A stretch of DNA of 64,000 nt from Chiridota heheva (Eukaryota > Echinodermata > Holothuroidea > Apodida > Chiridotidae): positions 773,501-837,500 of the forward strand of contig JAIGNY010000165.1 of NCBI GenBank assembly GCA_020152595.1, written 5' to 3'. The notes beneath the pieces are model-generated. The model saw nothing but the letters and a program-made list of their open reading frames with translations. It had not been told where the DNA came from and ran no database searches. Positions 9,908-46,015 of this stretch are shown piece after piece. Positions within the stretch are counted from its first letter, which is position 1. Each line of letters starts with the position of its first letter. The translations under genes and the position numbers were made by a program.

Positions 9908-9949
9908 ACCCCCCGCCTCCTTTATGGCATACACCACAAACAATTACAA

Positions 9950-21316: not shown

Positions 21317-21640
21317 GTATCTTCAACAGGATTCGTTTAGCTGATGGTATAGCAGAGGGAGAAGGAAGGGTTGAAATCTTTTTTAAGAATGAATGGAGCA
21401 CCATCTGCAACACAAACTTTCGCATAGAAGAGGGGCATGTCATCTGCCAGCAACTTGATTATGTTGGGTTGGTATGGCTGGATTCCTTTGGCCCAGGAAC
21501 TGGACAAATACTTCATTCAGGTGGAACTTGTAATGGAGGTGAAGTTTCAATACTAGACTGTGATTTATCTTCTGACAATATCGTTGGTGATACTAGCTGC
21601 AACCATGACCTTGATGCTGGGGTTGTTTGTAAGGTTCGAG
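21317..21640 (+). CDS. SRCR domain exon A1 of a transmembrane scavenger-receptor-like gene
   Basis: A 324 bp exon (108 codons), acceptor CTGTAG before 21317 and donor GTGAGT from 21641; both junctions are phase 1, the usual symmetric arrangement of SRCR exons. It encodes one complete group A SRCR domain: IRLADG start, EGRVEIFF, W-STIC, VICQQLDY, FGPGTGQI, CNGGE, ILDC and the closing CNHDLDAGVVCKV. All six group A cysteines are present. SRCR domains are extracellular ligand-binding modules of innate immune and adhesion proteins; the ligand cannot be read from sequence. It joins in phase to exon B1. The signal peptide and first exon are not visible upstream. A methionine frame running in from 21274 is intronic before 21317. 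Confidence 0.9.
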
Positions 21641-22065
21641 GTGAGTAATTTTCTTAATTAGTTTATTGCAATCTTCAGCAGAAATTTGTGTACAGTTCGT
21701 ATGTACATTTTGTGTATAAGGTTACAAAAAGTAAGGAGATATTCAAGTTTAAAGATCTTATATATGTAGAAACGACTGGTTTAGTAAGTCTACTAGTGGA
21801 AGGTTGGAATCTTCATCCTCCCATTTTGAACAATTATTAATATATTGTAATGAAATTTATGTAACTTATTTACTATTTTAATTATTTTTCCTCTATCTTC
21901 CTTCAGGTGGTCATTATAATTACCCTTACTAGATTCTGTTTTATTACTTTCCTGACATGACCGATGATTTTTAAGTTATAGATATGGCAGCAAAAATATG
22001 ATAGAATACGTAAAGACTATGAAGAATCTCAGGCTGTCATATCACAAATAGTCTCTACTTTTTTT

Positions 22066-22233
22066 TTGCACCCATGTACTTCCTCTGCTAATCCCAGCTT
22101 CTGGCTTTTAGTTCCCGTGTTTCTCTCAATTCCCCTTTTTCTTTTCTTCCTACCTCTGGAATGATCTAACCTCTCAGGCACATTTTGACCCTCGCTGTCG
22201 TGGTGTCGTTAATCCCTCATCAAACAAACAAAC
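22066..22233 (+). mobile_element. 3' end of LINE family 1 (intron 1)
   Basis: Only the 3' untranslated part: starts near GCACCCATGTACTTCCTC and ends in TCAAACAAACAAAC. The flank ACAAATAGTCTC at 22044-22055 reappears as ACAAGTAGTCTC at 22234-22245, a candidate 12 bp target duplication with one mismatch. Confidence 0.75.
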
Positions 22234-22245
22234 ACAAGTAGTCTC

Positions 22246-22648
22246 CTTATTGGCTCCCCCCAACCCCTCTGCAACAATTGCCATTGCACCCTCACAATCC
22301 ATCACGTTCTCCTTGCTTGCCCCCTGTACAACCTTCCCAGAGCTTCCCTCGCTTCCTACAACTCAATTGCTGAGTTCTTCCAGAAAAATCCTCTGGATGA
22401 AATTATCTCCTTCCTTCATCATGCCTCCCTCTACGACCATATTTAATTCTTCTCTTCCACCCCTCTTTACTTTGTTTTTGTTTCAACCATGTACCTCCCC
22501 TCACGATCACAGCTTTCTGACCATTTGTCCTTAAATTTCTCTCATTCTCCCCCTGTTTCCTTTACTTCCGACCTCTAGAATGATCTAACCTCTCAGGCAC
22601 AATTTGACCCTCGCTGTCGTGGTGTCATTAAGCCCTCATCAAACAAAC
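22246..22648 (+). mobile_element. Second 3' end of LINE family 1 (intron 1)
   Basis: Begins within the ORF2 C-terminal region and encodes the end that in copy A reads TQLLSSSKN..HASLYNHI, then the 3' UTR and TCAAACAAAC tail. The following ACAACTAGTCT (22649-22659) again resembles the flank before the preceding fragment, suggesting two successive insertions at one site. Confidence 0.75.
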
Positions 22649-23079
22649 ACAACTAGTCTTGATTCCAGTCGTTTCTACACAAATAATACCAAACCTAAAA
22701 CTTATATATCTCCTTTATATATAGACTTTTGAACGCTTTCTTCACCATTTGGTGTCTTGTGAAGACCTGTATCATGTAAGATGGAATTGCTTGATTCCTG
22801 CACTAATCCTTGAAAAGAAAAAAAGCTTTACAAAGATGGAAATTAAGTCTTTAAAACTTGACGAGTGACTTCAAATACCAGATGGTGTGTAGTATATGTC
22901 ACAATCTTAGTATTTTGGCATACAATTAAGAACTATGAATATTCATATAAGATCTGCCCATACGTACATCACAAATTAGTTGAACATAGATAATATATTA
23001 ATTTGAAATTATTTTGATGGGAATTTCAGCTAATTCCAACGAAGCCTTGTTTTCACCTGCCTTTGTTTGTTTGTCTGTC

Positions 23080-23800
23080 ATCAACATATCTCTGACTCCA
23101 AATCAATTCTCACAGGCATCTTAAGCATGCGCGCTCTGGTCTTATTCACTTATCTTACAAATCATAATTTACGCTCTTATTCCTCAGCGAAGAAATTCAT
23201 CTTCTTCTAGATCCCCAGCCACATTGGTATCTCTGGGAAAGAAAGGCTGACAGAGCAGCCAACAACGCGCTGTGAAACCACATTTCACCAATCCTTATTC
23301 CGCGCTCATGATTTCCACCTCAACATTTCCAGCTACTTCATGGAGACCTGGCAAGACTCCTGGAATCTTGAGACCAGTAACAAACTTTACACTATCAATC
23401 CCAAAGTAGGGACCAACCGCTCCTTACACAGTCACAATCATAGAGAGGACGTTGCTGTCACCCGCACACGTTTTGTCACTCCTTTCTCACCCACTCATAC
23501 CTCCTATCAGGCTCTCCCAAACCTCTGTGCCCAACTTGCAACACTGATCTGTCTATCAAGCATATCCTCTTAACCTGTGTCTTATATCTGAACTCCATAT
23601 CACTCCTTTCCTCCTCCACCTTCATTTCTAATCTCTTCAAGAACAATCCCTCCTCCAACATCATCACCTTCCTCTGCAATAGCAACTTATCTCCATCCTT
23701 ATTCTAGCACCTTAAATTTCTAACACCCTCTCGGCAGATTTGACTCTTGACTGTTGCAGTGCTGTCAAGCATCAACCAACCAAATCATACCAAACCAAAC
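23080..23800 (+). mobile_element. LINE-2 fragment: RNase H end and 3' UTR (intron 1)
   Basis: Translates in pieces to ISDSKSILTGIL, a broken IPSHIGISGKERADRAANNAL (RNase H third and fourth acidic positions) and the C-terminal Cys cluster region, then a 3' end GACTCTTGACTGTTGCAGTG followed by CAAACCAAACC. Stops interrupt the frame. It belongs with 14955-15402. Confidence 0.7.
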
Positions 23801-24180
23801 CAAAAGAGTGATTTAACTTTGTTGACATTTTAGCCAGCTTTTTTGATGTAACAGTAGAAAAATCAGAAGAAATGGTCACTGACCCCTACAATTTGACCAC
23901 GAGGCAGAGTGGAAATGGGGGATACCCATTTTTTCTCTCCTCCCTATCCCCTCTCCCATTCATCTCCATCCTAACTCTAGCACCTTAAGTTTCTAGCACC
24001 TTCTCGGCACATTTGACTCTGACTGTTGCGGTGCTGTTAAACATCCACAAACCAAACCAAAAGTGCGATTTAACTAATTAGCCAGCTTTTTTATGTAACA
24101 GTAGAAAAACCAGAAGAAATGGTCACTGACCCCTACAATTTTACCACGAAGCAGAGGGGATGGGAGGTACCCATTAAAGT
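23680..24180 (+). repeat. Direct duplication of about 250 bp including a LINE-2 3' end
   Basis: Unit 1 (about 23680-23935) and unit 2 (about 23936-24180) both carry CTCCATCCT, TAGCACCTTAA, the LINE-2 terminal motif, AAACCAAACCAAAAG, GATTTAACT, AGCCAGCTTTTTT, GTAACAGTAGAAAAA, CAGAAGAAATGGTCACTG and ACCCCTACAATTT. Both the LINE tail and its flank are repeated, so this is a local duplication after insertion. It ends ~130 bp before exon B1. Confidence 0.75.
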
Positions 24181-24306
24181 CAAGAACCACATACTTTTTT
24201 TAAGAAAGTGAAGTTGAATTTTGTTTGATTTAATAATTCTTAATGGTCATTCCAAAAGGAAAAACTGCATTTATCATAACTACTATATTTTCTTCCACCA
24301 TTCTAG

Positions 24307-24613
24307 ATTGGGAGCATTCTGTCAGACTTGTTGGTGGTAACTCGATTGCTGAAGGACGTGTTGAATTTTACGATAACCAGTGGTAGGACGCCCTGCTCCG
24401 ATGATTTAAATGAAGAGACAGCCAGAGTTATTTGCATAGATCTGGGATTCATTACGGCCAAAGCTTACAACTCTCTGACTGTCAATTCTGCGGGACAGTC
24501 TTCTGGCTTCTACTACTATTGTACCACATATGATTTCACATTGGAGGACTGCTTACAAATGTTTTTCAGTTCCAGCTGTTTTTCTCCTGGAGCATCAGTG
24601 GTCTGTCAAACAG
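24307..24613 (+). pseudogene. SRCR domain exon B1 with a one-base frameshift
   Basis: The acceptor TTCTAG ends at 24306 and the donor GTCAGT starts at 24614. In the incoming phase the exon reads DWEHSVRLVGG, EGRVEFYDNQW and then a TAG stop at about 24385. One base later the frame continues RTPCSDDL, VICIDLGF, AYNSL, YYYC, LEDC and VVCQTG to the donor in phase 1. Sister exon B2 has RWLTPC at the same point, so one surplus T after the TGG codon accounts for everything. Exon length is 307 bp, where 306 would keep phase. All six cysteines exist across the two frames. Either this allele is broken, the exon is skipped (a 1-1 exon can be dropped without shifting the rest), or the base is an assembly error. 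Neither option can be chosen from sequence alone. Confidence 0.85.
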
Positions 24614-24975
24614 GTCAGTCATGGTCAGCAAGTAGTCTTTAGACTTAAGAAAAATATTCTAGTATCCAAGTAGACATGCATGTTTATCAAAGAGGGCAGT
24701 AAAAGGACAAAATGATGAAGAAAATGTTTTTGTTGTTATTATCATTATTACAAGTTTATGTATTGTTAGTGTTTCCATAAATTAGAACATGTCACCCTCT
24801 AAAGTACAGCAAATGTGTGTCTGTGTTTGAAGATCAGTCATCATGTTAATGTTAATATTAATATAAAACAAGAATGCAATCCACGTAGTTGCTGGTCTCA
24901 TCACCACTTGTCATTTAGCAATGACCTACCCTTTATATGATTCTGTATCATTCTGTATATCAGATTTAAAACTTT
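24614..24975. other. Intron 2, 5' part
   Basis: No feature recognised beyond the splice donor. Confidence 0.4.
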
Positions 24976-25490: not shown

Positions 25491-27922
25491 TTATGTATCT
25501 AAAGTTTCATTGATATAACAATCAGTAAGCTGTTGTAATATCTCTATAAGAAAATTACTATTTACTAATTACTATTTTTAGACATAATTGTTTTTCTCTT
25601 TGAATACCATTAGTCTAGGCCTATCTGTAACATATCGAGAAGAGAAGAAAATAGAAGATTAATTAGTAACAAAGTTAATAAAAAAGTGAAGTAACTTAAC
25701 GCAAACGAAACGAGGTAGTTGTTAAAAAAAATTGTCGAGGCCTGCACTGAAACACTGGTTTTAATACAAATACTCTGCTCTTACATGCTTAGGATTTGTA
25801 CAATATTTACGCTTCTCATGCTTGTTTTGATTATTTGCATCTTCAAAAACTAATTCCAAATACGTCTGTTCCGGTGTTTTGATTTTTCACTCGGTGGCAC
25901 ACACGATTTAGAGGAAGACTTTAAATCGTCCACCTTGCATACATGAGAGAAGGGACATTATCACAAATCAAGATTGAATGTTGCGTGTAATATCATTTCT
26001 TTATTGAATAAATCATGATGAAAAATTAATTATCAGGATATTTGACTAAGCTTAGCATTTCTGTCGAAAGTATAATGTTAAGTGCTTAAAAACAATTGGT
26101 GAAAAATGGTTTTACACATGTACTACTGCAAAAGGACAAACTTCTGATAAATCACTGTGCTGGACCAAATGAGAAACCCCAGAGAAAAGGCTTAAGAAAT
26201 CATTTCTTTGCCAATATGCCACTATACATTGGGGCGCTAGGCCCTACATCCCGATTTGTGCCTTTAAACAAATGGTAAACATATCAAATACGACTTACTA
26301 CTAAAACCAATAAAGAAAACAAAAAATTTGAGCTAAATTGTCTTGAAACAGATTATTGTCATGGCTGTTTTAGTGTTTTCGATATACAGTAAGCATGCAT
26401 GCACGTAAACGCCTGAGAATTTAAATAGGCCACGGTAGAGGGGTACTATAACGCGGCAGGTCGTTTGTTTACAAAAACATTTAAGCGTATCATGCATACG
26501 CAACATTAGTCCAAATGTAGGTTATGGGCTATGCATAATACACTGACTACTGGTATTCCTACGACTATTTTTCATTTATGTTAATTTTTCTTGATGTTAG
26601 GTTGTCCTGTAAGTATGCACAATTTTAAAATTTATTTAGTTCAGCACACAGGGGTCAAAAACATTTTCAATTTCGTTGAGTTCTCTGTAGAACCCTATCA
26701 TCGTCAGCGGATCCAGACTAGCCTTACGTAATCTCTATAGGCGTAGGCTAGGCCTACAGTAAGTGTAGGCTCATTTTGCAAAAGAACATTAAAATTGCAA
26801 TGTTCTGTAATAAATCAATAGAACGAACAGCTGAATATAGTATTAAAAGATAACTGATTAATTCCTTCGGCATTTACAATATATATCTAAGGAAAATATT
26901 TTTGATTTTCACATTATTTTGTGTATTTCCCCTTAATTTAGGGTAAACCCAAATTCCAAGAATTTGACATAAATGTATCAAAACGTTTATTTCAAAGGTC
27001 AGGTACAATCTGAATTACATAATCCAGAGAAAGATGCGATTATGTTTAATGAATTAAGTCTTGAATTTCCATTTTTCTCCTTTTTTAATTTTATGTGCCT
27101 TTGGCATCAATCTGAAAACAGGAATTAATGCTTGAATTCTGAACCCTCAAAAATAGTTTTTGATATGGGGCACTAAATTTGATACCATATTCAGTCTTTT
27201 CATTAGAAAATGACTCTAAATAGTCTTACCTTTACTGTTCAAAACCTGTTATTATTATTTTTTCATTTCTATACATTATTATATAGTAATTATTATTAAA
27301 TACATTTAGGAAGCGCTAAACAACTTGCAGCAGGGGTTTTATTTAATATATACCATGAAATAGGGGCCAACAAATCGTGCAGCATTTGGTTGAATTTCAA
27401 CCAATCAAACAACTTGAATTGAGTTCTAAACATTGTGTCCATATAAAGATTTTGCCTCTTTAAATAATTCAAAATATAGAATCAGTTACAATGTGACCAT
27501 TTTACAGTATTTTCAATTTTTTGGCCGCATTGTGCAATAATTTGTGGCATAGACAGATGAACACGTTTTCAATTGTTTGTGTATTAAACTCCTTTGTTTT
27601 CCAATCCTCTCTAACGTATATTTTGAAGGGCCATTATCTGATTCATCCAGATAATTTTAAACTTGAGACACCTATTGTAGAGCATCAGGTAATCAGCAAA
27701 GAAGAAAACAAATTAACTGCTTAAAACTGAAGAACACATTTTAAAGAATTACTTCAAGATATTGAACTGTGTTTATCTGATGACTTCACAAAGTTTGCCC
27801 GAATTCTAAAATCTTGAAACATTGATTGACCATAACCGAAAAACTACATAAGCCTTTTGAAAGATTTAGAGGACATTTTACTCAGAATTTAATATTCTTT
27901 TACATATATAAGAACTAGATGG
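25491..27922. other. Gene-free intron stretch
   Basis: AT-rich intronic DNA. TAGGCCTA-type words near 25617 and 26750. No exon with SRCR motifs or other recognisable element. Confidence 0.5.
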
Positions 27923-28032
27923 TTAAAGGAGTATTCCCATGGAGTTTTTTTTAAAATATATATGATAGAGGAGAATAAAAGAAGCAGATTGGTAAAAAAA
28001 CCCAAGTTAATATCTTATTCCTACTAGATCAA

Positions 28033-30956
28033 GGACAGTAAAACCAACACTTGGAACAACTTTATCTCTTCTCTCACCACCAACACCCCCACGAAGAAGA
28101 TTTGGAGAATGGTTAACAACTTCCACGGCAGAGTGGGCAAATCTCCCATCTCCCATCTCTCTTGGAATAGTAACCCTCTCACCGCAAAAAAGGACATCGT
28201 TAACCACCTCGCCGCCTCTTTTAGCAACATCTCGTCCTCGACCAACTACCCTAATGCTTTCAAAGCCAAAAAAGCGTGTGATGAAGCCCGGAGTATCACC
28301 TTCCCTCTGACAACACCAAAAGCTACAACATCCCTTTCACCCTTTATGAATTAAAACAAGCCATCCACGATGCTGGCTGCACCTCCAAGGGCCCAGATAA
28401 TATCCCCTACCAGTTCCTGAAACACCTCCCCATCAAGGCCACCACCACCCTTTTCACCAACTCTCAACCACATTTGGTCCTCACACTCCTTTCCCCTTAT
28501 TTAGAGGACAGCTATTGTCATCCCCATCCTTAAACCGGGGAAGGAGGGTACCGACCCCTCCAGCTACGGACCCATCGCCTCACTTGCTGTCTCTGTAAAA
28601 TTATGGAAAAAATCACTAATCAGAGACTAAACTGGTTCCTCGAGACCAACAGAATCCTCTCCCCTCACCAAAGCGGCTTCCGAAAACGTTGCAATACCCT
28701 AGACAAGTTAATTACGCTCGACAACGCTCGACACCGCTCGACACCGCTATCCAGGAATTCTTTGCAAAAAAGGAACACCTTATTGCCATATTTTTTGACC
28801 TCCAGAAAGCTTTCGATACTACTTCAAAATACGGCATTACCCGCTAACTTCACACCATTGGCCTCAGAGGCCAACTCCCCATCTTTATTCAAAACTTCCT
28901 CTCACCCAGGCAGTTCCAAGCTCGTATGGGCCACACCCTCTCCAACCCGTACCTCCAAGAAGAGGGCGTCCCCCAAGGCAGCATCCTCTCTCCCACTCTC
29001 TTCAACCTGAGCATCAATGACATCGCGGATAACCTTGGCCCCAACATCAAACGTACCTTATATGTGGATGACTTCACCATCTTCTACTCCTTCCCTAGCT
29101 CTCCTATTGCTGAAAATAGGCTCCAAATCAGCCTCACAGGCTGCAAGTCTGGAGCAACAATAACGGTTTTAAATTCTCCAAAGACAAGACGGTCTGCATG
29201 CACTTTTGTCATTTCAACAACCTCCACCCCAACCCGAACTTTGTGCTCAATGGAAATCGCATCTCTAAAGTTGAACACACAAAGTTCCTGGGTCCAACTC
29301 TTGACCCCAGGCTCACCTACAAGCAACACATCACCAACCTGAAACTAAAGTGCAACAGCTCCCTCAACTTCCTCCGGCTCCTCTCCAACACCACTTGGGG
29401 AGCTGACCGCTATGCTCTCCTCAAAATTTTCAGGCTCACCATTCGTGCCAAGCTTGACTATGGCAATATTGTCTACTGTGTCGCTCACAATTCATACCTC
29501 AACCACATCAACACCATCCGAAATGAAGCCCTCAGGCTTTGTCTAGGAGCCTACAGGACCTCCCCAATCACCAGCCTTCATGTTGAAGCCAACAAACCCC
29601 CCTTTGTACTTAGATGTAGAAAGCTTAGCCTCTTCTATGCTTTTAGAGTCCTCACCAACACCCAGAACCCTGTTTACAACCTCATTAGGTACCCCAATTT
29701 CTCCTCCCTCTTTTATAGGACTAAAACCCTATCCCCTCCCTTCAGCTTACGCATTAAATCAGACCTCTTCAATCTCAGCATCAACCTCGCCACTCTCGGC
29801 ACCTACTCCTGGCCCACTTTTCCTCCTTGGGCCACCCCCCTCCCTTCTGTCCACCTAGACCTCTCCACTTATCATAAAACTCAGTCTCAAACCCACCCTA
29901 ACCTCTTCATCAATTTCCACAACCAAATCAAAGACCAACTCTCAAATTACACCTCCATCAATACTGATGGCTCCAAGGAAGGCAACAAGACAGCTGCTGC
30001 TGCCATCATCCAAGACATCACCCTCAGTAGCAGACTTCCTGACTATTCATCCATCTTTTCAGCCGAGGCTAAGGCCATTCTCCTTACCCTCAACTCTATA
30101 GAGTATACTCTCCTCTCAGCCATTTTGCCATTTTCTCCGGCTCAAAGGCTGTTCTTACTTCATTACTCAATCTTAAATAGGATAACCTCACATGCCACCT
30201 CCTCCTCCAGAAACTTTTTTCTCCCACCCTCTGCAGGAAAAGGGTTCTTTTCTTCTGGATACTCAGCCATGTTGGCATCCCTGGCAATGAGGGCTAATGC
30301 AACGCTAAGCTTGCCCTCAACCTCCTCCCTACCCCTTTTCCCAAAACCCTCTCTGACATCAAACCGCTTATTGCTTCCCTTCTTCATGACCGCTGGCAAA
30401 CCTCATGGAACTCCCAAATTGATAACAAAGTCCATGTCATCCAGCCCAAAATCCCGATCAAATCCACCATCAACACCTCTCTCGTATCGACAACGTTTAT
30501 ATTACCCGTCTTAGAATTGGTCACACCCACCTCACTCACTCCCACCTCCTTATTGGTCCCCCCCAACCCCTCAATAACAATTGCCACTGCATCCTCACTA
30601 TCCATCACGTTCTCCTTGCTTGCCCCCTGTACAACCTTCCCAGAGCTTTCCTTGCTCCCCACAACTCAATTGCTGAGTTCTTCCAGAAAAATCCTCCGGA
30701 TCAAATTATCTCCTTTCTTCATCATGCTTCCCTCTACAACCATATTTAAATCTCCTCTTCCACCCCCTCCCTACTTTGTTTTTCTTTCATTCATGCACCT
30801 CCTCTCTCGATCACAGCTTTCTGACTTTTGTTCTTAAATTTCTCTCATTCGCCCCCTGTTTTCTTTCCTTCCTACCTCTAAAATGATCTGACCTCTCAGG
30901 CACAATTTGACCCTCGTTGTCATGGTGCCGTTAAGACCTCATCAAACAAACAAACA
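28033..30956 (+). mobile_element. LINE family 1, copy B (5' truncated, nested in copy C)
   Basis: Begins at a point equal to about 10926 of copy A and runs to a (CAAA)n tail. An 11 bp direct repeat TACTAGATCAA flanks it (28022-28032 and 30957-30967). The target is the 5' junction of copy C. It contains palm and thumb of RT (GSILSPTLFNLSINDIADN at about 28978; YVDDFTIF at about 29062), a long open frame at 29198-30514 reading the thumb, linker and much of RNase H, then the C-terminal Cys cluster and 3' UTR. Frameshifts break RT and RNase H; endonuclease and ORF1 are absent. Confidence 0.9.
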
Positions 30957-30967
30957 TACTAGATCAA

Positions 30968-31445
30968 ACCCACCATCCACAACCTCTCCCATGTCAACAA
31001 TGTTCACATTACTCGTCTTAGAATAGGTCACACCCACCTCACTCACTACCACCTCCTTATTGGCTCCCCCAACCCCTCTGCAACAATTGCCATTGCACCC
31101 TCACAGTCCATCACGTTCTCCTTGCTTGCCCCCTGTACAACCTTCCCAGAGATCCTTTGCTCCCCACAACTTAATAGCCAAGCTCTTCCAGAAAAACCCT
31201 CCAGATAAAATTATCTCCTTCCTTTATCATGCTTCCCTCTACAACCATATTTAGTCCTCCTCTCCCATCCCCCTCTCTTTACTTTTTTTTTCTTCACCCA
31301 TGCACCTCCTCTCTTGATCCCAGCTTTCTGGCTTTTCTCTCAACTCCCCCTGTTTTCTTTCCTTCTTATCTCTGGAATGATTTAACCTCTCAGGCCAAAT
31401 TTAACCCTCGTTGTCATTGTGCTGTTAAGCTCTCATCAAACAAAC
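30968..31445 (+). mobile_element. LINE family 1, copy C (3' end only)
   Basis: Contains the ORF2 C-terminal region (reading, with shifts, a Cys-His cluster and HASLYNHI) and the 3' UTR ending TCAAACAAACA. ATTCCTAC at 28017-28024 (before copy B) and 31446-31453 (after copy C) is the target duplication of C. Copy C is therefore older than B and both are younger than FB2. Confidence 0.8.
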
Positions 31446-31792
31446 ATTCCTACAAGAAGTTATTGAATTTCAAAGAATGTTCTTGCCCGCATAAAAATGG
31501 TTTTTGCACCGAGTCTTAAGTTATCATTATGATGTCATCATAGCACTTTCTATACTAATCTTTATGTATTTCTTTGAAAATTAATTACCAATTTTTCATA
31601 ATTAAAACATGAGGTATGTGAACAGATTGGAAAACATTGTAAAAAAATTTTCTATAGTATTCTTAATCCTTTTTTGAAATCCTTTTTTTGAATTTTCTTA
31701 AATTCTTTTGAAGAAAAAATGTTCCTAATAATTAAGAAAATATACAATTTTTTTTTTTTTAGATGCATAAAGAATATAGTACAGGAAGTGCT

Positions 31793-31940
31793 GTGATGAC
31801 ATCATAATGATGACATCATAATGATGACATCATAATGATGACATCATAATGATGACATCATAATGATGACATCATAATGATGACATCATAATGATGACAT
31901 CATAATGATGACATCATAATGATGACATCATAATGATGAC
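31793..31940. repeat. Minisatellite of a 14 bp hairpin unit
   Basis: Ten full units of ATGATGACATCATA (the first starts GTGATG) and a partial one, almost without variation. Each unit is an inverted repeat, ATGATG-A-CATCAT. The left arm of FB2 holds only one to one and a half such units at 31525-31545, so the array grew in one arm only. Confidence 0.95.
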
Positions 31941-32267: not shown

Positions 32268-32588
32268 GTCAACGCAATTCTTACGATATTCGTCTGGTAA
32301 ACGGTTTCTCAGAGGGACAAGGAAGAATTGAAGTCCTTTCTGCAAACGCATGGAAAACGGTCAGTGTCAGTGAATTTGGAATTAATGAGGGTCGTGTGGC
32401 TTGTCAGCAACTGGGCTACATTGAGCTAATTAAACTGACATTTTTTGGAAGTGGAACAGGATCACAGGGGTGCATTGCTTCTCTGGTATGTAGCGGCGGG
32501 GAAGAGTCCCTCATGGATTGCTCATCAGTGGAATTCTCCTCTACCTGCAATCATTTGAATGATGTAGGTGTGGTTTGTAAAGTTCCAG
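32268..32588 (+). CDS. SRCR domain exon A2
   Basis: A 321 bp exon (107 codons), acceptor TGATAG before 32268, donor GTTAGT from 32589, phase 1 at both ends. It encodes an SRCR domain closely matching exon A1: IRLVNGFSEGQGRIEVL, GRVACQQLGYIEL, FGSGTGSQ, CSGGE, LMDC and CNHLNDVGVVCKVPG. The cysteine normally present after the W-T-hydrophobic motif (TIC in A1) is replaced: the sequence reads W-KTVSVSEF. An additional cysteine appears in SQGCIASL. The total stays six, but the usual C2-C7 disulphide partner is gone. The donor is weaker than that of A1. It joins in phase to exon B2. Confidence 0.9.
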
Positions 32589-33066: not shown

Positions 33067-33124
33067 CATTTCTACCCTTGTCCAATCTGTTTGACATTGA
33101 GAGATATGAAGACACTTTGGTATG

Positions 33125-35981: not shown

Positions 35982-36269
35982 TTGAGAGCGACGTGACTTC
36001 TATTCTATTCTCTCCAACTTTTCATTCCGATTCACTTTACCTTGCACTTTACCACCTAAATTTTGTTTTATATCTTCATTTTCTGGGATTCTCTCTCTGT
36101 GGATGGGCATCTGCTTTTGGTGAGATTGTTCTTTCGTTTTTTCTTCCCTTCCGTTCTGACCAGACTTTTGCGCCTTTTCGTTACCTGTACAGCGGTTCTC
36201 CAATAGTAGTAAAGGGATTTTTTTGTAGTTGCTTTGGGTCTCTCAGCCATTGGTTTTTTTTCTTCATCA

Positions 36270-37588
36270 TGATGAAACGCTTCTGCTGTGACCTTGACCC
36301 TCCCTTCCCTACCAGAGGCCACCAATCAACCAAAAAGTTATAAAAGAGTTTCCCCTTTTCTAATTCACAAAGTGCTCCAAGGCCTTGTCGGTACCCTCCT
36401 CAAAGTCTCTACCCTCAGATCCGGCGATCTCCTGGTGCACTGCACAAGGGACGCTCAAGCCACCACCCTCCTCACCACCAAAACCTAGCCAATACTGGTA
36501 TTGACGTTACAGTCACCCCTCACTATTCCCTAAACTCCAGCAAAGGTGTGGTCAGAACGAGAGACCTAGCCTACTTGACCGATGAAGCCTCGTAGAGGAA
36601 CTTGCCAATCAACACGTTACTAAAGCCTGTCATCTCGTCCTCAAGAGAGATGGGGCCGAAACACCTAACAATACCATCATCCTGACTTTTTCCACACCAG
36701 CCCTCCCCTCCCACATCACTGCTGGCTACCTGAGAATCCCAGTTACCCCTTATATTCCTAACCCCCTCCGTTGTCATAAGTGCCAGAGGTATGGCCATGG
36801 TAAAAACTCCTGCCGCAGCCAAGCACGTTGTGGCAACTGTGGAGCCCATTATAGCACCTCCTGCACCAGCACCCCACTCTGCACCAATTGCGACGGTACT
36901 CACCCAGCTATCCATCCCTCCTCAATAAACTGCCCCACCTGGCTTCAGGAAAAGCAAATAACCAAACTAAAAACCCTTAATCCCAACATCACTTACCCGG
37001 AGGCCAGGAAGCTACTTCTCGCTTCCCTCTACACTAAACCATGCTACTCGAGTGCAGTCTCCTCTAATACCAATATCGCCCCCGTCCCCCCCCCCCCTCC
37101 CTAACACAACTAAATCTGACTTACATACCCAAACCGACCTCACCTGGCTCTTCTTACCCAGTCCTAGCCCATCACCGTTGCCAACAATCCAACTACACCA
37201 ACTACCAAAACCACCTCCACCACCACTTCTCTTCCCAACCTTCCTTCCTTTTCTAAGACCCTTTCCGTCCCTTACCCCAACACCTCTAATGCCATCAAAT
37301 TCAAGCCAACCTAGGCAACAAACAAACAGCAAACCAATCAACAAACAGCCCACCATCCAAACTTACATGTATGACACTGAAGAGAACATAGATTGTTTGA
37401 TTACCGAACACACCGGACATACTTCTCGTCCAACTGTCAAAAACAACCGCTTCCAAAGAAACAGGGACAGATCCAAAGAAAAAAAACAAGCCAACTTAGA
37501 CCTAACAGATATCCCTCCAGATAACCCCTTTCTCCTGATGGCATGTAACACAAACAGTTACAATAACACCCACAACATTATACAATGA
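36270..37588 (+). pseudogene. LINE D: broken ORF1 (gag-like, zinc-knuckle RNA-binding protein)
   Basis: In changing frames it reads KVSTLRSGDLLVHC and DAQATTLL (the RRM-like region of I-type ORF1 proteins), RTRDLAYLTD, VTKACHLVLKRDGAE, GYLRIPVTPYIPNP and then CHKCQRYGHGKNSC, CGNCGAHYSTSC and CTNCDGTHPA. These are two canonical CCHC knuckles (C-X2-C-X4-H-X4-C) and a third, altered one. A C run at about 37085-37098 breaks the frame; copy E has a C run at the corresponding place. The C-terminus at 37052-37588 resembles the ORF1 end of copy A. Such proteins coat LINE RNA. Stops and shifts rule out a full product here. Confidence 0.8.
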
Positions 37589-40500
37589 AACATCCAGAGC
37601 CTTAACCCCAATTCAGAAGAAATTGACCTACTGGCCACCACCTTTAACCTGGTCGTCTTCTGCCTACAATAAACCTTGAAAACCACTGACCATTATTTTC
37701 TCAATATCTTCGCTTGCTACCATAAACATCAAGTGGATGCCGACAGGGCCTGTGGGGGGCGTCTCCATTCTTGTTAGACATGGTATCCCATGGTATCTCC
37801 CTCCACAAAACCTTCACTCTTTGTAATATCTATCTCCCTCCCCCCCCCCCTCCCAACACCAACTTTCAGCCAACCAGCCTTAACAACCTCATCACTCAGC
37901 TCCCCTCCCTTTTCATCCTTCTTGGTGACTTCAATGCCCACAACCCCATGTGGGCTCCGATACTAACACTCTCAGAGGCAAGCTTGTCGAAAACACTCTT
38001 CGACAGCTCAGCCTCTCCTTGCTCAACACTACCTCCCCGACCTACCTTCACCCTGCCACAGGCTCCCACACCTGTATTGACCTGTCTATCTGTTCCCTTA
38101 ACCTCCTTCTTGATTTTACTTGGAAAGTCACCACTGATCTCTGTGGTTGTGACCATTACCCTCTTCTTATTCAATCCAGCCTTTAAACTCCCACAGACCA
38201 CACCCCAATTGGCACCTCAAGAAGGCAGACTGGCACCTTTTTAAAACCCTCTGCGACTCTCACCTCTCCCCCATCTTCTTGAGGGTGAGGATCCCATGTC
38301 AAACTTTATTACCATCCTTATCAACATTGCCACCTGCTCTATTCCCAAAACCTCCAAACCCCTTAATCACCCCCAACCCCTGGTTCACTGATGACTGCAA
38401 AACCGCCATCAAGAACAGAAAAAGGGTCCTTAGGAACTACAAAACTAACCCGACCACCCCCAACCTCAACTTTATTTGCATCAGCCATGCCAAAGCCATG
38501 CACTATCAAGGACAGTAAAACCAACACTTGAAACAACTTCATCTCTCCTCTCATGCACCACCAACACCCCCACCAAGAAGATTTGGAGAATGGTCAACAG
38601 CTTCCATGGCAGGATGGGCAAGTCTCCCATATTTTCTGGAATGTTAAACTTCTCACTGCGAAAAAGGACATCGTTAACCACCTCGCTGCCTCTTTCAGCA
38701 ACATCTTTCCTCGGCCAACTACCCTAATGCTTTCAAAGCCAAAAAAGCTTGTGATGAAGCCCGGAGTATCACCTTCCCTCCGACAAGGCCAAGAGCTACA
38801 ACACCCTTTTCCCCTTATGAATTAAAACAAGCCATCCACGATGCTGGCTGCACCTCCGAGGGCCCAGATAACATCCCCTACCAGTTCCTGAAACATCTCC
38901 CCAACAAGACCACCACTACCTTACTCACCATCCTCAACCACATTTGGTCCTCACACTCCTTTCTTCCTATCTGGAGGACAGCTATCATCACCCCCATCCC
39001 CAAACCGGGGAAGGACAGTACCGACTCCTCCAGCTACCGCCCCATCGCCCTCACCTGCTGTCTCTGTCAAATTATGAAAAGGATCATTAACCAGAGGCTA
39101 AATTGGTTCCTTGAGACCAACAGACTCCTTTTCTCCTCACCAAAGCGGCTTCCGAAAACATCGCAATACCTTGGACCAGTCAATTACTCTCGTTTTGGAC
39201 CTCGAGAAAGCTTTCGACACTACTTAGAAATACGGCATTTACACCATCGGCCTCAGAGGCCACCTCCCCATTTGTATTCAAAGCTTCCTCTGACCCAGGC
39301 AGTTCCAAGTTCGTATTGGCCACACCCTCCCCAACCCCTACACCCAAGAAGAGGGCGTCCCCCAGGGCAGCATCCTCTCCCCCACTCTCTTCAACCTGAG
39401 CATTGATGACATCGTGGACAACTTTGGCCCCAACATCAAACGTGCCCTCTACGTGGAGGACTTTACTATTTTCTACTCCTCCCCAAGCTTTCCTCTTGCC
39501 GAAAATAGGCTCTAACTCAGCCTTAACCGGCGCAAGACAGGTGCAACAATAACAGTTTTAAATTCTTCAAAGACAAGACACTTCCGTCATTTCAACAACC
39601 TTCACCCCAATCCGAACCTCGTGCTCAATGGCAATCACATCCCTAAAGTTGACCACACTAAGTTCCTGGGTTTAATCCTAGACTCCAAGCTCTCCTATAT
39701 GCAACACATCACCAACCTGAAACAGAAATGCAACAGCTCCCTCAAATTTCTCCACCTCCTCTCCAACACCACTTGGGGTGCGAGCTGCCATGCTCTCCTC
39801 AAATTATTCAGGCTCACCATTTGTGCCAAGCTCGATTACAGCAATATTGTCTACTGTGCTGCTCACAACTCTTACCTCAACCACATCAACACAATCAAAA
39901 ATGAAGATCTCAGGTTTTGTATGGGTGTCTACAGGACCTCCCCCATTGCCAGCCTTCACATTGAAGCCAACAAATCCCCCTTTCTGCTAAGGTGTAGAAA
40001 GCTTAGCCTTTCCTATGCTTTTAGAGACCTCACCAACTTCCAGAACCCTGTTTACAACCTCATTAGGTACCCCAATTTCTCCACCCTCTTTGATAGGACT
40101 AAAACCGAATCCCTTCCCTTCAGCTTACGCATCAAATCAGACCTTTATCTCGGTATCGATTCCACCTTGCTTGGCACTTTCTCCTGGCCCACTTTACCTC
40201 TCTGGGCCACTCCCCTCCCTTCTATCCTCCTGGGCCTCTCCACTCATCACAAAACTTAAACCCACCCTAACCTCTCCATCAACCTCCGCAACCAAACCAA
40301 TGACCAACTCTCAAACTACACCTCCATCTATACTGATGGCTCCAAGGAAGGCGACAAGACAGCTGCTGCTGCTGCTGTCATCCAAGACATCACACTCAGT
40401 AGCAGGCTTCCCGAGTATTCGTCCATCTTCTCGGCCGGGGCCAAGGCCATCCTCCTTGCCCTCAACTTTATTGAGTACTCCCCACTTGCCACTTTGCCAT

Positions 40501-41095
40501 CTTCTCCGACTCCAAGGCTGTCCTTAACTTCATTACTTAATTTTAAATGGGATAACCTCACATCCCACCTCCGTAAACTCCTTTCGCCCCCTTCCCCACC
40601 CATGCAGGAAAAGTATTTTTTTCTTCTGGATACCCAGCCATGTTGGCATTCCTGTCAATGACAGAGCTGATGCAGCCACTAAGCTTGCCCTTAACCTCCC
40701 CCTACCCCCTTTCCCAAAACCCTTTCTGACATCAAACCGCTTATCGCTTCCCTTGATTATGACCACTGGCAAACCTCATGGGACTCCCAAATTGATAACA
40801 AACCCCACGTCATCCAGCCCACCATTCCAATGAAACCTGTGTCGACAATGTTCACATTACCCACCTTAGGATAGGTCACACCCACCTCACTCAATCCCAC
40901 CTCCATTTCCCCACCCCTCTGCAACAATTGCCATTGCACCCTTACAGTCCATCATGTCCTCCTTGCTTGCCCCCTGTACAACCTTCTCAGAGATTCCCTC
41001 ACTCCCCACAACTCAATTGCTGAGCTCCTCTCAAAAAACCCTCCAGATAAAATTATCTCCTTCCTTCATCATGCTTTCATCTACAACAATAATTA
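37570..41095 (+). pseudogene. LINE D: broken ORF2 (endonuclease, RT, RNase H)
   Basis: Endonuclease motifs from about 37590 (NIQSLNPNSEEIDLLA) with FILLGDFNAHNPMW near 37915; RT palm with GSILSPTLFNLSIDDI near 39370, where the active-site box reads YVEDFTIF instead of YVDD (about 39450); thumb frame 39621-40259; RNase H with DGSKEGDKTA near 40337 and SRPGPR-type shifts; C-terminal cluster near 40930-41090. One acidic RT residue replaced by Glu, a deletion in the fingers near 39190 and multiple frameshifts mean it is dead. Confidence 0.8.
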
Positions 41096-41332
41096 GTCCT
41101 CCTCTCCCACCCCCCTCTCTATACTTTGTTTTTTTCCCCATGCACTTCCTCGCTTGTTCCCAGCTTTCTAGCTTTTAGTTCCCGGGTTTTTTCAATTTTT
41201 CCGTTTTCTTTCCTTCCTACCTCTGGAATGATCTAACCTCTCAGGCACAATTTGACCCTTGCTGTTGTGGTGCCGTTAAACTCTCATCAAACAAACAAAC
41301 AACGTCCTCTATGCATATAATGTATGTTATAT

Positions 41333-41700: not shown

Positions 41701-41737
41701 ATGTGAATAATGGTATCATCTCTTGTCTATTTTCTAG

Positions 41738-42067
41738 ATCCCGAGAATTCTGTTCGACTTGTGGGTGGATATTCAGTATCTGAAGGCCGTGTTGAATACT
41801 ATTACCACAAGAGATGGCTAACACCGTGTGCGGTGGATGTAAGTCAAAATATAGCCAACGTGATATGCAGACAGATGGGGTACCTTATTGCGACTTCTTA
41901 CAATTCATTAACCTCTTATGCAGTTGGAAATGGTATCAATGGTGGTATGAAGTTATCATACATCTGCTATTCCACTGACACAACTTTAAGCGACTGCTCA
42001 GATTTTTCTTTCTCTGCTTCCACATGCTCAGCTCCATCAACTTCAGTTGAATGTGGAGATGTTCCTG
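41738..42067 (+). CDS. SRCR domain exon B2
   Basis: A 330 bp exon (110 codons), acceptor TTTCTAG ending at 41737 and donor GTAAGT from 42068, phase 1 at both ends. It is the intact counterpart of B1: DPENSVRLVGGYSVSEGRVE, RWLTPC, ANVICRQMGY, SYNSLTSYA, SYICYSTD, TLSDCSDF, STCSAPS and VECGDVPG. All six group A cysteines are present, but the closing motif lacks the CNHxxDxGVVC consensus of the A type. It joins in phase to the terminal exon at 45393. The donor lies inside the first unit of a 30 bp tandem repeat. Confidence 0.9.
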
Positions 42068-42250
42068 GTAAGTCAATTGATTGTGTACTTGTTACTAGAA
42101 AGTCAATCATTTGTTTTCTTATCACTGTAATCTATATTTGTGTACTTGTTTACAGGTAAGTCAATTGATTTTATACTTGTTACTGGTATGTCAATTGATT
42201 TTATACTTGTTACTGGTAAGTTGAGTGATTGTGTACTTGTTACTGGTAAG
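42063..42250. repeat. 30 bp tandem repeat that multiplies the splice donor of exon B2
   Basis: Units begin at 42063, 42093, about 42123 (28 bp), 42151, 42181 and 42211, with a partial unit at 42241. The last ones are nearly identical: TACTGGTAAGTCAATTGATT then TTATACTTGT. GT-donor cores occur at 42068 (GTAAGT, the exon junction), 42156 (GTAAGT), 42186 (GTATGT), 42216 (GTAAGT) and 42246 (GTAAGA). Reading through from exon B2 stays open to a TAA at 42157-42159. Confidence 0.85.
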
Positions 42251-42917
42251 ATAAGATAAATGTCTAATGATAATTTATATTTTCATCTACTCAACGAAAT
42301 TGGCCGATGGGGATACAAAATCTTAAAGTGGTCCTGCCGTAGGGGCCGTATCTTATGTTAAATATGTTATTTGGATTAGTTGATTTGCAAAAATATAACT
42401 TTTTTTCTGCACAAAACCTAATCTTAAAAGAAAAATGCATTTTTCGTCACCTTGATGCAAAAAAACTAGAATAAAGCTGAATACGCAATAACGACATTTT
42501 GGGAACCACTGTATGTAAACAATGCATGGGTGCCACATATAACATGTGGCCGCTTTTGAAATTTCACAACTAGTATTGACAGCATTTATGTTTGTTCTTC
42601 TAAAATATTACATTTTCCAAGCAAATATAAAGCAAAATGCTGCAGCGTTGTGTACTTGGAGGATGCATTCTGAAACTAAAAGCTGTTTATCAAGGGCAAA
42701 GGGCAACTAAACGAGACAATTCTGTACGTGTTTTATCCACTTGACATGAACCAAGTTTTTGATGCTTACCGGGTACAGTGTCATATTCAGCTCACGCCAG
42801 ATTGTTATCCCTGTTCTGTTTGATTTAAACAGTAGCTTGACCACATTGTCTCTGACACGAAAATTTAACTGTTTCGTGAGTAATACAAATTTAAATAAAA
42901 GAAACAGAGAAAAAAAA
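42251..42917. other. Intron 4, gene-free
   Basis: No exon recognised. Confidence 0.4.
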
Positions 42918-42992
42918 GACTAGGTGAGATTCGAACCCATAACTCTCTCTCAAAACACAAAGCTGTATCCGACTGGGCTAATTAAATCAGTT
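42918..42992 (-). other. tRNA-like element with A box, B box and T-run terminator
   Basis: On the - strand TAGCCCAGTCGG is a perfect A-box consensus, GGTTCGAATCT is a good B box 31 bases further on, and CTAGTCTTTTTTT provides a Pol III stop. The anticodon arm and acceptor stem do not fold into a canonical cloverleaf, so a tRNA-derived SINE head or tRNA pseudogene is likelier than a working tRNA gene. It lies antisense in intron 4. Confidence 0.5.
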
Positions 42993-43924
42993 GAAAATTT
43001 GTATGATTTATTTTATATATACATGTAGTGTGGAATATGATCGAAGGAAGAACAATTCTTAAAGTGGAACTGAATTTTAATTATTGTGTCCGTATGCCAA
43101 GCCGTCCTTTTTAGCATATCAAAACTGAAAAAATAAATTAGCAAAATGTTCACAATTTCTTCAGAAACTTTCAATTCAATTGCAAAAACGCAAACAGAAT
43201 TGCATGAATGAACTATTCAGTTCACGTAGGCCTGTTGACTAAACGTCAAGCGACAGAGACTTGAAGATTGATAAATAAAACTGTATATTTCCATTAGACG
43301 TAAAAAAGGAAGGTAGATGTTGTTGCAAACACTTCAATTTGATTATGTTTAACAAAATATTACTTGCGAAACAGTAAGAATTCCATGCTGATTACACAGG
43401 CTTTGTATTGTAGGACCGAGTAAGGGTTGTAAGCCTGATCCTTTTTTCTTGTCTGCAAGTTGTTTAAATTCAAAAGGAACAACATCCCTTCATTATGAGA
43501 ATGTTTTTCATTTATTTCCAAATCATTTTTATCATAGCTTGAACTTAAAAATGACAAATTAAGATCTGAACAGCCCAAAAAACTTTTGCAATCAGACGCT
43601 ATTTGTACGTGGTTAGTATGTGTGTGATGCATTGCTTACGATCAGCAGTTCCTGAAATGACGTAGCAAACTATTATGACGTCACAAATCTCTTTCAACTT
43701 TTTTTTTGGAGCATGATTAATTTATAAGTCCTTTTTCATTATGAAAATGGACTTAAAACCAGGATTTCTTGACGAATTATTGAATTTAGGGATATGAAAA
43801 ACCTATATGAAGTCAAATCTCTTTTTTTGGGGAAGGCATGGCAGGACTACTTTAACCTTTCATTGTCCATCCGCCCAGTCAATCATTTAGCTGTTCAGCT
43901 GTTCCTCTCTCCATCTGACAACAC
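42993..43924. other. Intron 4, gene-free
   Basis: No exon or repeat that I can support. Confidence 0.4.
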
Positions 43925-44275
43925 ATCATTCAACAAGATTAACTTTGCATCATAACATTGAGGTATAAATAGTTTTATACTCATAATTTATTTCACCTTT
44001 CCCTAGTAGCAAAGACAAACAATGCCAGCATTGATCAGGCTTACTACTTATATTGCAAAGGATTGCCATTAAATTCAGATGTGTGTCACTAAAAATACCA
44101 TGTAACACCAGTGGGAGTAGTTGTTATCTTAAAGGAGCCTTGGAGAGGTGAAACTGTATACAGTTTTGTGGTTTGGGAAACAAAGAAATATATCACTTTT
44201 ACTTCCGGCCCTGCTCCATTTGAGGGCAGGTTGAGATGTTCCTGGTTTTTATAAGCAAAGCCATTTCTAATGACA
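43925..44275. repeat. Dispersed segment SD, uninterrupted copy
   Basis: Shares long blocks with 55135-55219 and 55816-56065: ATAAATAGTT, ATTTCACCTTTCCC, TGCCAGCATTGAT, GTGTGTCACTAAAAATACCA, GTAACACCAGTGGGAGTA, AAACTGTATACAGTTTTGTG and AAGCCATTTCTAAT. This copy is free of the LINE found in the other. Confidence 0.75.
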
Positions 44276-44459
44276 ATAGTTGCTGGCCCAAATAGAAATA
44301 AAACATGAGATAAATTATTTTAAAGAAAATTTTACTTTTGTATGTTAATTTATAGTAGACAGATTGCCCTATGTGATAAGACAAAACTTTTAATTAAAAA
44401 TGTTTCAAGGGAGTTTAGGAGGTGACAGTAATGACGTCATGTTTTGTAAGGTCATTAGG

Positions 44460-45040
44460 AGGGAATAGAGAGATGGGATGTAGTGGGGGGGAGGGGGTGG
44501 TTACTTGGCGTTGAGATGATCAGTGGGGGTAATTTGGTCAGTGTCACTTTGGGGTGGGTAGATGAGTGGATGGTGGATATGAGAGGCGGTAGATAGCTGA
44601 GTAGATCTGGGTATAAGAGTGGAGGTTAGGTATATGACAGCAGACGGGCAGATAAATAGTAGGTGGCATTACTGGGTTGAAGGTAGATAAGTGGAAAATG
44701 ATATGAATGGAAAGGGTAGCTTAATGCAGAGGCTTCGGATTGTGAAGAGTAGGTGGTTGATAATGATAGTTGTATAGGGGGTGACTGTGTGGTGGGGATG
44801 GTAGGTGTGTTGAACATGGTACAGGTAGTTGAATGAAGGATGGCAGGTGAATAGCGGTTGGTAGCTGAATGAAGGGTAGCAGGTGAGTGCAAAATAGGAG
44901 GTGAATGGAGGGTGCACGAATGGAGGTTGGTAGGTGAATAGATGATTGCTAGTGAATGGAGGATGGTAGGTGTGTTGGGCATGATTGGTGAATGGTGAGT
45001 GGTAGGTGAATGGAAGAGATGGTAGGTGAATGGAGGATGT
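44460..45040. repeat. Minisatellite MSAT3
   Basis: Degenerate units of GGTAGGTGAATGGAGGATG (about 20 bp), with AT-richer variants in the middle. Related to the first part of MSAT2. The Pro-Ser-Leu-rich frames on the - strand are by-products. Confidence 0.8.
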
Positions 45041-45300
45041 CAGCAGTGAAATTTCTGTCTGCAGTGAAATTTGTTAACTATCAATGTCAGAGTATGACCA
45101 TGGAAAGTGAGGTGAAGTGAGTGGAAACCCCTGGTGTAATTGCTTGTGCTGAATTGTGATTTCTGTTGTGAGCAATATAGACCCCGACAGATTTGAGATT
45201 TTGTCGGGGCTTAAGACAAATTGTATTGTGAGGTGTAGACTTCATGTTGATGCATTTATAGAATCAGACATGCCTCCTGAATAAACTTTCTGTTTTGCAG

Positions 45301-45348
45301 ATTATTCTGGAATTATTTATTGGTATATCCATTATATCGTACTTTAAA
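45301..45348 (+). other. Acceptor followed by a short open tail; possible alternative terminal exon
   Basis: AAACTTTCTGTTTTGCAG is a strong acceptor ending at 45300. In the phase used by all other junctions the sequence after it reads DYSGIIYWYIHYIVL and then TAA (45346-45348). A donor-like GTATAT at 45323 would leave phase 2, incompatible with the acceptor at 45393. It could make an alternative end without the tail exon, or be a decayed exon. Confidence 0.3.
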
Positions 45349-45392
45349 CATTAATCTGATTTGGATCCTATCTGTTTTCTATTTAATTTCAG

Positions 45393-46015
45393 AAGTAACC
45401 ATTGGCGGAGTAATTGCATTCATTGTAATTGTCATCATGATCGGTTTATGTGTCTGTGGTTGTTGCGCTGTGTGCTGCAGATCGTCATCTCGAAGAAGAT
45501 CAACACAAGCTACTACTTCAAATGTAGTAGTTACAAATGCTCCAAATGTTCCAAGTACTGTAGTGCATCCACCCCCTGGTCATCAGATGTATCCAGTTCA
45601 ACAGATGCCACTGCAGCCAGTGGTATTACCACCTCCACCATACGATGCAGTTCAACCTCCACCTAGCCAGACTTATCCTGCACCTCCTCCAGGGCAAGGG
45701 TACCCTCAAGCACCAGGGTACCCACCAGCACAGGGGCCGGGATACCCACCAGCAGAAGGGCCTGGATACCCACCAGCACAAGGGCCTGGATACCCACCAG
45801 CACAAGGGCCTGGATACCCACCAGCACAAGGGCCTGGATACCCACCAGCACAAGGGCCAGGATATCCACCAGCACAAGCCCAAGGGTACCCACCAGCACA
45901 AGCACCAGGGTACCCACCAGCACAAGCACCAGGGTACCCACCACCTTCAGCTAGCCAACCTGAGATGATCCAACAAACCCCTGCAGATCCATCAGCCCCT
46001 CCCCTGTATATCTAG
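45393..46015 (+). CDS. Terminal exon: transmembrane segment and GYPPAQGP-repeat cytoplasmic tail
   Basis: The acceptor TTTAATTTCAG ends at 45392; phase 1 joins it to exon B2. Residues 1-5 form a short stalk (EVTIG). GVIAFIVIVIMIGLCVCG is a strongly hydrophobic membrane span, followed by CCAVCCRSS, a cysteine-rich juxtamembrane stretch suited to palmitoylation, and the basic SSRRRSTQ. The cytoplasmic part is rich in Pro, Gln and Tyr: LPPPPYDAV (a PPxY WW ligand), nine octapeptides GYPPAQGP or close variants, and a C-terminus PADPSAPPLYI that combines PSAP with PPLY. The stop TAG is at 46013-46015. Together with the SRCR exons this gives a type I receptor with an extracellular SRCR array. Its role is inferred as recognition or uptake at the cell surface. 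Similar GYPP repeats occur in annexin, rhodopsin and Shisa-like tails, but no homology is claimed. Confidence 0.85.
45698..45945 (+). repeat. Coding minisatellite of 24 bp (GYPPAQGP)
   Basis: About nine units of GGATACCCACCAGCACAAGG-type sequence, in frame with the tail exon. Several central units are identical, so copy number has changed recently. Because 24 is a multiple of three all frames stay open, which explains the Trp-rich and His-Lys-rich frames on both strands. Confidence 0.95.

Follow-up and report, generated by a model that had tools for sequence, protein, structure and literature searches.

The region analysed here, hereafter the window, is a stretch of 64,000 nucleotides from the sea cucumber Chiridota heheva (contig JAIGNY010000165.1, here C157, positions 773501-837500 of a 1.1 Gb genome). 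It contains on its forward strand four exons that each encode a scavenger receptor cysteine-rich (SRCR) domain, followed by a last coding exon with a hydrophobic segment and a proline-rich tail. Two exon types alternate in the order A1, B1, A2, B2, and related exons elsewhere in the genome suggest that the gene is one of a family. The exons, in window coordinates, are as follows.

21317-21640, forward strand: exon A1, an SRCR domain with six group-A cysteines, phase 1-1 (Pfam PF00530, E 9.7e-20; splice sites; cysteine columns).
24307-24613, forward strand: exon B1, a divergent SRCR domain broken by a one-base frameshift (PF00530, E 4.8e-10, with an X placed at the shift).
24384-24386, forward strand: a TAG stop in the acceptor frame of exon B1, at the shift site (translation).
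32268-32588, forward strand: exon A2, an SRCR domain without the first group-A cysteine and with one cysteine elsewhere (PF00530, E 1.6e-18; cysteine columns).
41738-42067, forward strand: exon B2, a divergent SRCR domain with six cysteines (PF00530, E 1.4e-13; B-type relatives on contig C3738 at 48-51% identity).
45393-46015, forward strand: the last coding exon, with a transmembrane segment, CVCGCCAVCC, PPPPY, a GYPP array, a C-terminal PSAPPLYI and the stop (open frame; motifs; two related tails on C3738).

The bounds that a first-pass annotation of this DNA had given for the five exons are correct: AG precedes all five and GT follows the four SRCR exons. The latter match PF00530 at 40-71 bits, all above the curated cut-off of 26.1, and SRCR is the sole Pfam domain found in them. 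Read by eye, the junctions run CKVR-D-WEHS, CQT-G-QRNS, CKVP-D-PENS and GDVP-E-VTIGG. The same annotation placed every junction in phase 1, which holds for A1, A2 and B2, but B1 as assembled (307 nt, 1 mod 3, with its TAG) agrees only if the shift is accepted. A profile built from the four SRCR exons brought no further window frame past the inclusion threshold (2045 stop-to-stop frames of at least 20 residues), and no additional match across 294 kb of contig C157 (27.5 kb masked). A relaxed search for a signal-peptide exon gave three candidates in 21.3 kb, and in the control stretches two in 18.0 kb, none in 21.3 kb and one in 18.0 kb. We also considered a start codon at 21274 that reads directly into A1 with signal-peptide-like residues (MVLNYMYFLCCLSVG...), and rejected it by eye: an in-frame ATG likewise lies in the tract before the B2 acceptor (41710), so the one at 21274 is not distinctive.

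Within the last exon the hydrophobic segment is followed by the cysteine cluster CVCGCCAVCC, two PPxY motifs and one C-terminal PSAP. The PPPPY, cysteine cluster and PSAPPLY previously described are thus present, but the supposed nine GYPPAQGP octads are in fact ten GYPP in an eight-residue register, comprising five GYPPAQGP, one GYPPAEGP, three GYPPAQA- and one GYPPPSAS (the last by eye). A motif scan of the tail found no NPxY, acidic dileucine or match resembling an immunoreceptor tyrosine-based inhibitory motif; it found one Y-x-x-hydrophobic match, YDAV, overlapping the first PPxY. Two tandem repeats occupy this end of the gene.

45713-45943, forward strand: a 24-bp coding minisatellite encoding the GYPP octads (Tandem Repeats Finder, 9.6 copies, 92% match).
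45997-46773, forward strand: a 393-bp tandem duplication that starts in the last codons and spans the presumed 3' untranslated region (Tandem Repeats Finder, 2.0 copies, 90%).

The second copy of the 393-bp duplication still has PPLYI and a stop (by eye), and the first AATAAA or ATTAAA after the stop lies at 46883.

Searching the genome with the tail returned 17 candidates, all of which were scored. Two non-self tails fell at E <0.001, both on contig C3738, at 124576 on the forward strand (43% identity, E 1.7e-8) and at 155355 on the reverse strand (40%, E 9e-4). Three weaker matches lay at E 0.05-0.6, and at the locus of one of these (L036) nothing tail-like was found among frames of at least 80 residues. 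A reverse search with the tail at 124576 recovered just the same three tails at E <0.001. Exon B2, for which the best 150 of 357 candidates were scored, found three close exons, again all on C3738, at 166814 (reverse), 121472 (forward) and 173272 (reverse), 48-51% identical with E 9e-23 to 5e-22; the next-best match outside the window was an SRCR at E 7e-11. A search with A2 placed A-like exons on the same contig at 105826 (forward) and 183976 (reverse). These exons define two further genes, whose models are incomplete, being built from matched exons only.

Gene X, C3738, forward strand: A-like exon at 106 kb, B-type exon at 121 kb, tail at 125 kb; a canonical SRCR at 94 kb may belong to it.
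Gene Y, C3738, reverse strand: A-like exon at 184 kb, B-type exons at 173 kb and 167 kb, tail at 155 kb.

The tail acceptors of both are in phase 1 (by eye). Judging from the matched exons, the genome has a family of at least three such genes, the window gene among them. All three tails carry PPxY on the predicted cytoplasmic side, as in PY adaptors of NEDD4-family ligases (two in the window tail, one and two in the sister tails), together with four to six cysteines within the first 35 residues and the string TVVHPP (by eye); PSAP occurs in two, those of the window gene and gene X. At PPxY the sister tails read YDTV and YETV (by eye). GYPP is found ten times in the window tail and once in each sister tail. 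The emphasis formerly laid on the GYPPAQGP array as the hallmark of the tail was therefore misplaced, the shared elements being the cysteines, PPxY and TVVHPP. From this comparison of three tails, the array is best described as a coding minisatellite that arose on an older YP-rich tail and is present in the window copy alone. The first-pass annotation had noticed neither the frameshift in B1 nor the relatives on C3738 nor the missing cation-site residues considered below.

Its recognition of two alternating SRCR types stands up well. The motifs it quoted as shared by A1 and A2, and by B1 and B2, are all present in the translations (by eye), and identities are 48/103 for A1-A2 and 46/102 for B1-B2, compared with 25-35 of 101-103 for the A-B cross pairs. 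The labels A and B should not be confused with the SRCR groups of those letters: each of the four window domains has six cysteines, as opposed to the eight of the group B domain CD163d2, and A1, B1 and B2 carry the six group-A cysteines, with an altered set in A2.

Phylogenetic analysis used five data sets: two with a CD163 outgroup, one with 11 domains from the same genome, one with the sister exons and one with the best matches of A2 added. Ten of the comparison domains were top Pfam matches, their neighbours or exons on C3738, and four were the best matches of A2 elsewhere. From the 11-domain set on, L004, whose domain is that of L003, and a 50-residue piece of L009 were dropped, and two degenerate, long-branched domains of locus L007 were left out of the last two trees. 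With the CD163 outgroup B1 and B2 pair at 100/100, and the outgroup splits A1 from A2 in the best tree (86/84); the approximately unbiased test does not reject the A1+A2 pair (p-AU 0.186, and 0.156 when CD163d4 is left out) but does reject A1+B1 and A2+B2 (p-AU 0.002 and 0.003). The 11-domain run carried warnings of unsettled bootstrap and long branches; it gives B1+B2 100/99 and sets the window domains, all four, together on one side (58/98). A tree with A1+A2 as a pair explains these data just as well (p-AU 0.581), and each of the four A-B cross pairs is rejected (p-AU 0.0005-0.001). Once sister exons are included, the B type (five rows) is held together at 100/99 and the A type (four rows) at 75/97, A1+A2 obtains 66/59, B1+B2 falls to 69/65, and the grouping of A1 with X and Y is not rejected (p-AU 0.335). 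In the last tree the nine family domains stand on one side of a branch (90/93) from the 14 others, with the B type at 100/99. Two alternating SRCR types and a common family are thus well supported by these alignments. Regarding the pairing of individual domains predicted by the first-pass annotation, B1+B2 is firm (99-100) without the sister genes but weak with them, and A1 and A2, never rejected as sisters, are non-sisters in three of the five best trees, an equal fit in one and weakly paired in one.

These patterns bear on the origin of the A-B-A-B order, which had been attributed to duplication of a two-exon cassette. Duplication of an A-B pair inside the window gene is the simplest reading of the present data and has a precedent in the sponge Amphimedon, where SRCR genes are described as growing by duplication of two-domain groups, the "Type 2" units (PMC10855680). 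Nevertheless, A1 and A2 do not pair in three of the best trees. The likeness to Amphimedon also has a limit, as most domains there span three exons and those of the window gene occupy one exon each, as in a sea urchin cluster (PMC10855680). We looked for a recent cassette duplication still traceable in the introns and rejected it: the long intron-intron matches lie in repeats, the strongest of them derived from long interspersed nuclear elements (LINEs), and neither the A1-A2 nor the B1-B2 flanks showed a direct match by eye.

For the cation site we compared six matching alignment columns per domain, which we take to represent it partly after the sequence of DMBT1. The four window domains are identical to the site at 1 of 24 positions and have D, E, N or Q at 3 of 24; for the nine family domains the figures are 4 of 54 and 9 of 54. 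Among 14 comparison domains, most of which were chosen as strong Pfam matches and so lean towards the canonical, D, E, N or Q occupies all six columns in ten, and five, four, four and two columns in the others. Structures of SALSA/DMBT1 locate ligand binding at a dual cation site, and this site is described as a conserved feature of SRCR domains (PMC7043408). Loss of the site is not unique to the family, yet it is common to all nine of its domains. With these residues lost, cation-dependent ligand binding of the usual kind is unlikely in the family. Elsewhere in the genome, the two degenerate L007 domains (contig C2635, 59-436 and 2751-3179) and a domain at L046 (contig C251) show cation-site identity at 1, 0 and 1 of six columns, and the L007 pair has D, E, N or Q at three and two.

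Exon B1 requires separate attention. Its acceptor frame meets the TAG immediately after ...FYDNQW and the remainder of the domain (TPCSDDL...) lies one frame over, so that translation of the exon as assembled would end after A1 and about 25 residues of B1. We left the shift unmended, placing an X at it for searches; it may be a genuine lesion or a fault of the assembly. On C3738 the three B-type exons stay open at this point, reading W-Q-TPC, which, with the stop and shift themselves, would fit a window copy that is a decaying pseudogene; for sea urchin, a case in which a stop-codon mutation cost an SRCR domain has been described (PMC10855680). We consider decay unlikely, given that the remaining four exons are open with intact splice sites, that third codon positions have diverged more than second ones (0.58 against 0.35 for A1-A2, 0.58 against 0.30 for B1-B2) and that a single indel could be an assembly error. 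Moreover, A1, A2 and B2 are symmetric phase-1 exons, and skipping of B1 would still give an in-frame protein of A1, A2, B2 and tail. The broken exon scored merely 1.3e-8 in the B2 search, and other broken B-type exons could therefore be hidden.

What might such a protein do? WBP1L is a palmitoylated single-pass protein whose cytoplasmic [L/P]PxY motifs bind NEDD4-family ligases and whose loss raises surface CXCR4 (PMC6991692), and Shisa-like proteins have the same layout (PMC10531659, PMC5578492, PMC6125347). The PSAP of ALIX is a docking site for TSG101, and spacings of the PxYP...YP kind, for example PGYPPPPGGYP in annexin A11, form type 1-like ALG-2 sites (PMC5037681). In our reading, the SRCR domains of the window gene would bind ligand through a surface other than the usual divalent-cation site, the juxtamembrane cysteine cluster would be palmitoylated, the PPxY motifs would recruit NEDD4-family ubiquitin ligases through their WW domains, and PSAP would recruit TSG101 of the endosomal sorting complex required for transport I (ESCRT-I). 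Weak multivalent contacts, for instance with ALG-2, may come from the YP-rich region, and expansion of the GYPP array would adjust how long or how multivalent the tail is. Y-x-x-hydrophobic motifs bind clathrin adaptors, and the one overlapping the first PPxY could do so as well. As an outcome, the receptor or a partner protein would be internalised and sorted into the endolysosomal pathway. That the window gene encodes a type I SRCR receptor, one of a family of at least three, whose PY/PSAP tail recruits NEDD4-family ligases and ESCRT-I for sorting, is a proposal to which we would give roughly even chances, the sorting mechanism being drawn from these analogies. Our best reading is that the receptor may act like the WBP1L and Shisa adaptors without belonging to them.

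Several observations weigh against this proposal. B1 is broken as assembled, and signal-peptide exons with a phase-1 donor, searched for under strict criteria, were found neither upstream of A1 nor in two control stretches. In the ranking of A2 matches four SRCR places elsewhere stand above 105826 and 13 above 183976, so that the family placement of the A-like exons on C3738 would depend on position, strand and tree. The trees themselves are not uniform: in the last one the A-like domains form a grade from which the B type springs, although neither an A clade (p-AU 0.458) nor A1+A2 (p-AU 0.156) is rejected, and the group of nine is absent from the best sister-exon tree (p-AU 0.452). Gene Y lacks PSAP, neither sister shares the C-terminal PPLY, and the window tail has no lysine (the sister tails have three each). 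Single motifs are also weak evidence, for when the 116 non-repeat residues of the tail were shuffled 20,000 times, PPxY appeared in 31% and P[ST]AP in 8% of the shuffles. The two occurred together in 2.5%; their joint presence among the last 12 residues, a test picked after the motifs had been seen, came up in 0.015%. The tail motifs are better supported by their conservation among the paralogues than by these statistics.

The tail might instead be a signalling scaffold, a polyproline helix for SH3 or WW domains or for actin regulators, and its low complexity, its richness in YP and proline (27%, with 22% and 21% in the sisters) and the lack of lysine in the window tail would all suit that role. 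We hold this to be rather unlikely in view of PPxY in three of three tails and PSAP in two of three, a pairing typical of NEDD4 and ESCRT recruitment. It is a good deal more improbable that the exons do not form one gene, with A1-B1 and A2-B2-tail in separate transcripts or the tail taken from another gene. Introns of 2.7-9.1 kb (from exon coordinates), LINE copies in the second and third of them and the failure of start-exon searches speak for such a division; on the other side, the junctions are phase-compatible in order (for B1, once the shift is accepted), an A-like exon, B-type exon or exons and a related tail follow in the same order on each strand of C3738, and no other related tail was found in the 294 kb of C157 scanned. 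Very improbable, finally, is a true Shisa/STMC6 protein with a swapped ectodomain, its tail homologous to Shisa or WBP1 tails. The layout after the membrane is indeed the same, with cysteines in the transmembrane segment or after it and a proline-rich tail that carries PY motifs (PMC10531659, PMC5578492), but such tails, in our opinion, easily evolve independently. Membership fails because the defining extracellular cysteine domain (C*C*CC*CC) is absent, the ectodomain being SRCR, and because DUF4083, at E 0.54, is the one Pfam match of the tail within E 1.

The proposed sorting receptor can be compared with several established systems. With the SR-I class (CD163, WC1, CD5, CD6 and the SR-I-like proteins of invertebrates, described as abundant in cnidarians; PMC5119243) it shares tandem SRCR as the only Pfam domain, a hydrophobic segment and a cytoplasmic tail, and among solved structures CD163 chains score highest, over the whole chain, as relatives of A1 and B2. 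Of the parts that define such receptors, these were seen in the window copy, and the searches identified no signal-peptide exon. It differs from that class in its six cysteines per domain (CD163 is group B), in the nearly lost cation site and in a tail of PPxY, PSAP and proline-rich repeats. The single pass, near-membrane cysteines and PY motifs in a proline-rich tail recall WBP1L/OPAL1 and the Shisa-like STMC6 proteins; the STMC6 proteins, however, bear a short cysteine-rich lumenal domain in place of SRCR. The tail has the PxYP...YP spacing of the ALG-2 type 1 regions of ALIX, annexins A7 and A11 and Scotin, with eight overlapping matches to a loose pattern, but the PPYP core was not seen in it, and the sister tails have three and two loose matches.

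The first-pass annotation had supposed that the combination of SRCR domains with this tail may be undescribed. Among the matches listed for the open-licence literature there was indeed no SRCR protein with a PPxY or GYPP tail, and GYPP repeat strings gave one fungal paper. Repeats of the GYPPQ type occur in squid rhodopsin, and the fact that no paper was found for these suggests that sequence strings are poorly searchable in the literature. The gene family is real and its fold ordinary; the union of SRCR with a PY/PSAP tail is probably unusual but not unprecedented.

The wider SRCR repertoire of this genome is strongly expanded. A genome-wide scan gave 521 candidates; among the best 150, which were scored, large exon clusters lie on C3378, C3744, C3452, C3212 and C3711, and a match at C540:25217-25510 sits within an open reading frame of 4348 residues, the next longest listed having 270. 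In a rough survey of 11 SRCR domains elsewhere in the genome, eight had a candidate phase-1 acceptor, nine a phase-1 donor and seven both, so that single-exon phase-1 SRCR domains are ordinary here and not alone evidence of a special cassette. Scans of IMG/VR with the SRCR alignment and with the tail returned no relatives. The corresponding GTDB scan found one bacterial SRCR-like protein, from a metagenome-assembled genome of Sandaracinaceae (L001, 9626-9784), in which the SRCR profile matches twice.

Repeats are frequent around the exons. A 30-bp tandem repeat (42060-42250; 6.4 copies, 76%) starts at the B2 splice donor, and several of its units carry a GGTAAGT-like sequence that could serve as an alternative donor. 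The intron before A2 contains a perfect 14-bp repeat (31794-31940; 10.5 copies of TGATGACATCATAA, 100%), and diverged minisatellites of 17-24 bp, with units like GGATGCCATGTGGGACA, lie at 4986-5505 and 19016-19417. LINE copies or pieces occupy introns and flanks at 9600-13700, 27900-31500, 36300-41300, 47300-47840 and 57000-62000 (extents by eye and blastn); of ten frames scanned, four have an endonuclease or reverse transcriptase match in Pfam (the best being Exo_endo_phos_2, E 7e-16, and RVT_1, E 3e-10). Window scans with Rfam (gathering threshold) and for tRNA were empty.

In some invertebrates SRCR genes are among the strongly expanded innate-immune receptors, and the papers cited here treat mainly their outside domains. 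A family that combines the SRCR fold, lost ligand-site residues and conserved tail motifs of the ubiquitin and ESCRT type would offer a testable route from recognition to internalisation, with a B-type SRCR subtype so far seen only with a PY tail, in this genome, and a coding minisatellite growing within a receptor tail. We put forward, as a possible though doubtful extension, that it represents a new kind of animal receptor, with A-like and B-type SRCR domains lacking the cation site on a Shisa/WBP1-like PY and PSAP tail, in which ligand binding would directly recruit NEDD4 and ESCRT and the GYPP minisatellite would vary valency between copies or individuals. If true, this would be a scavenger receptor bearing its own ubiquitin-sorting adaptor.

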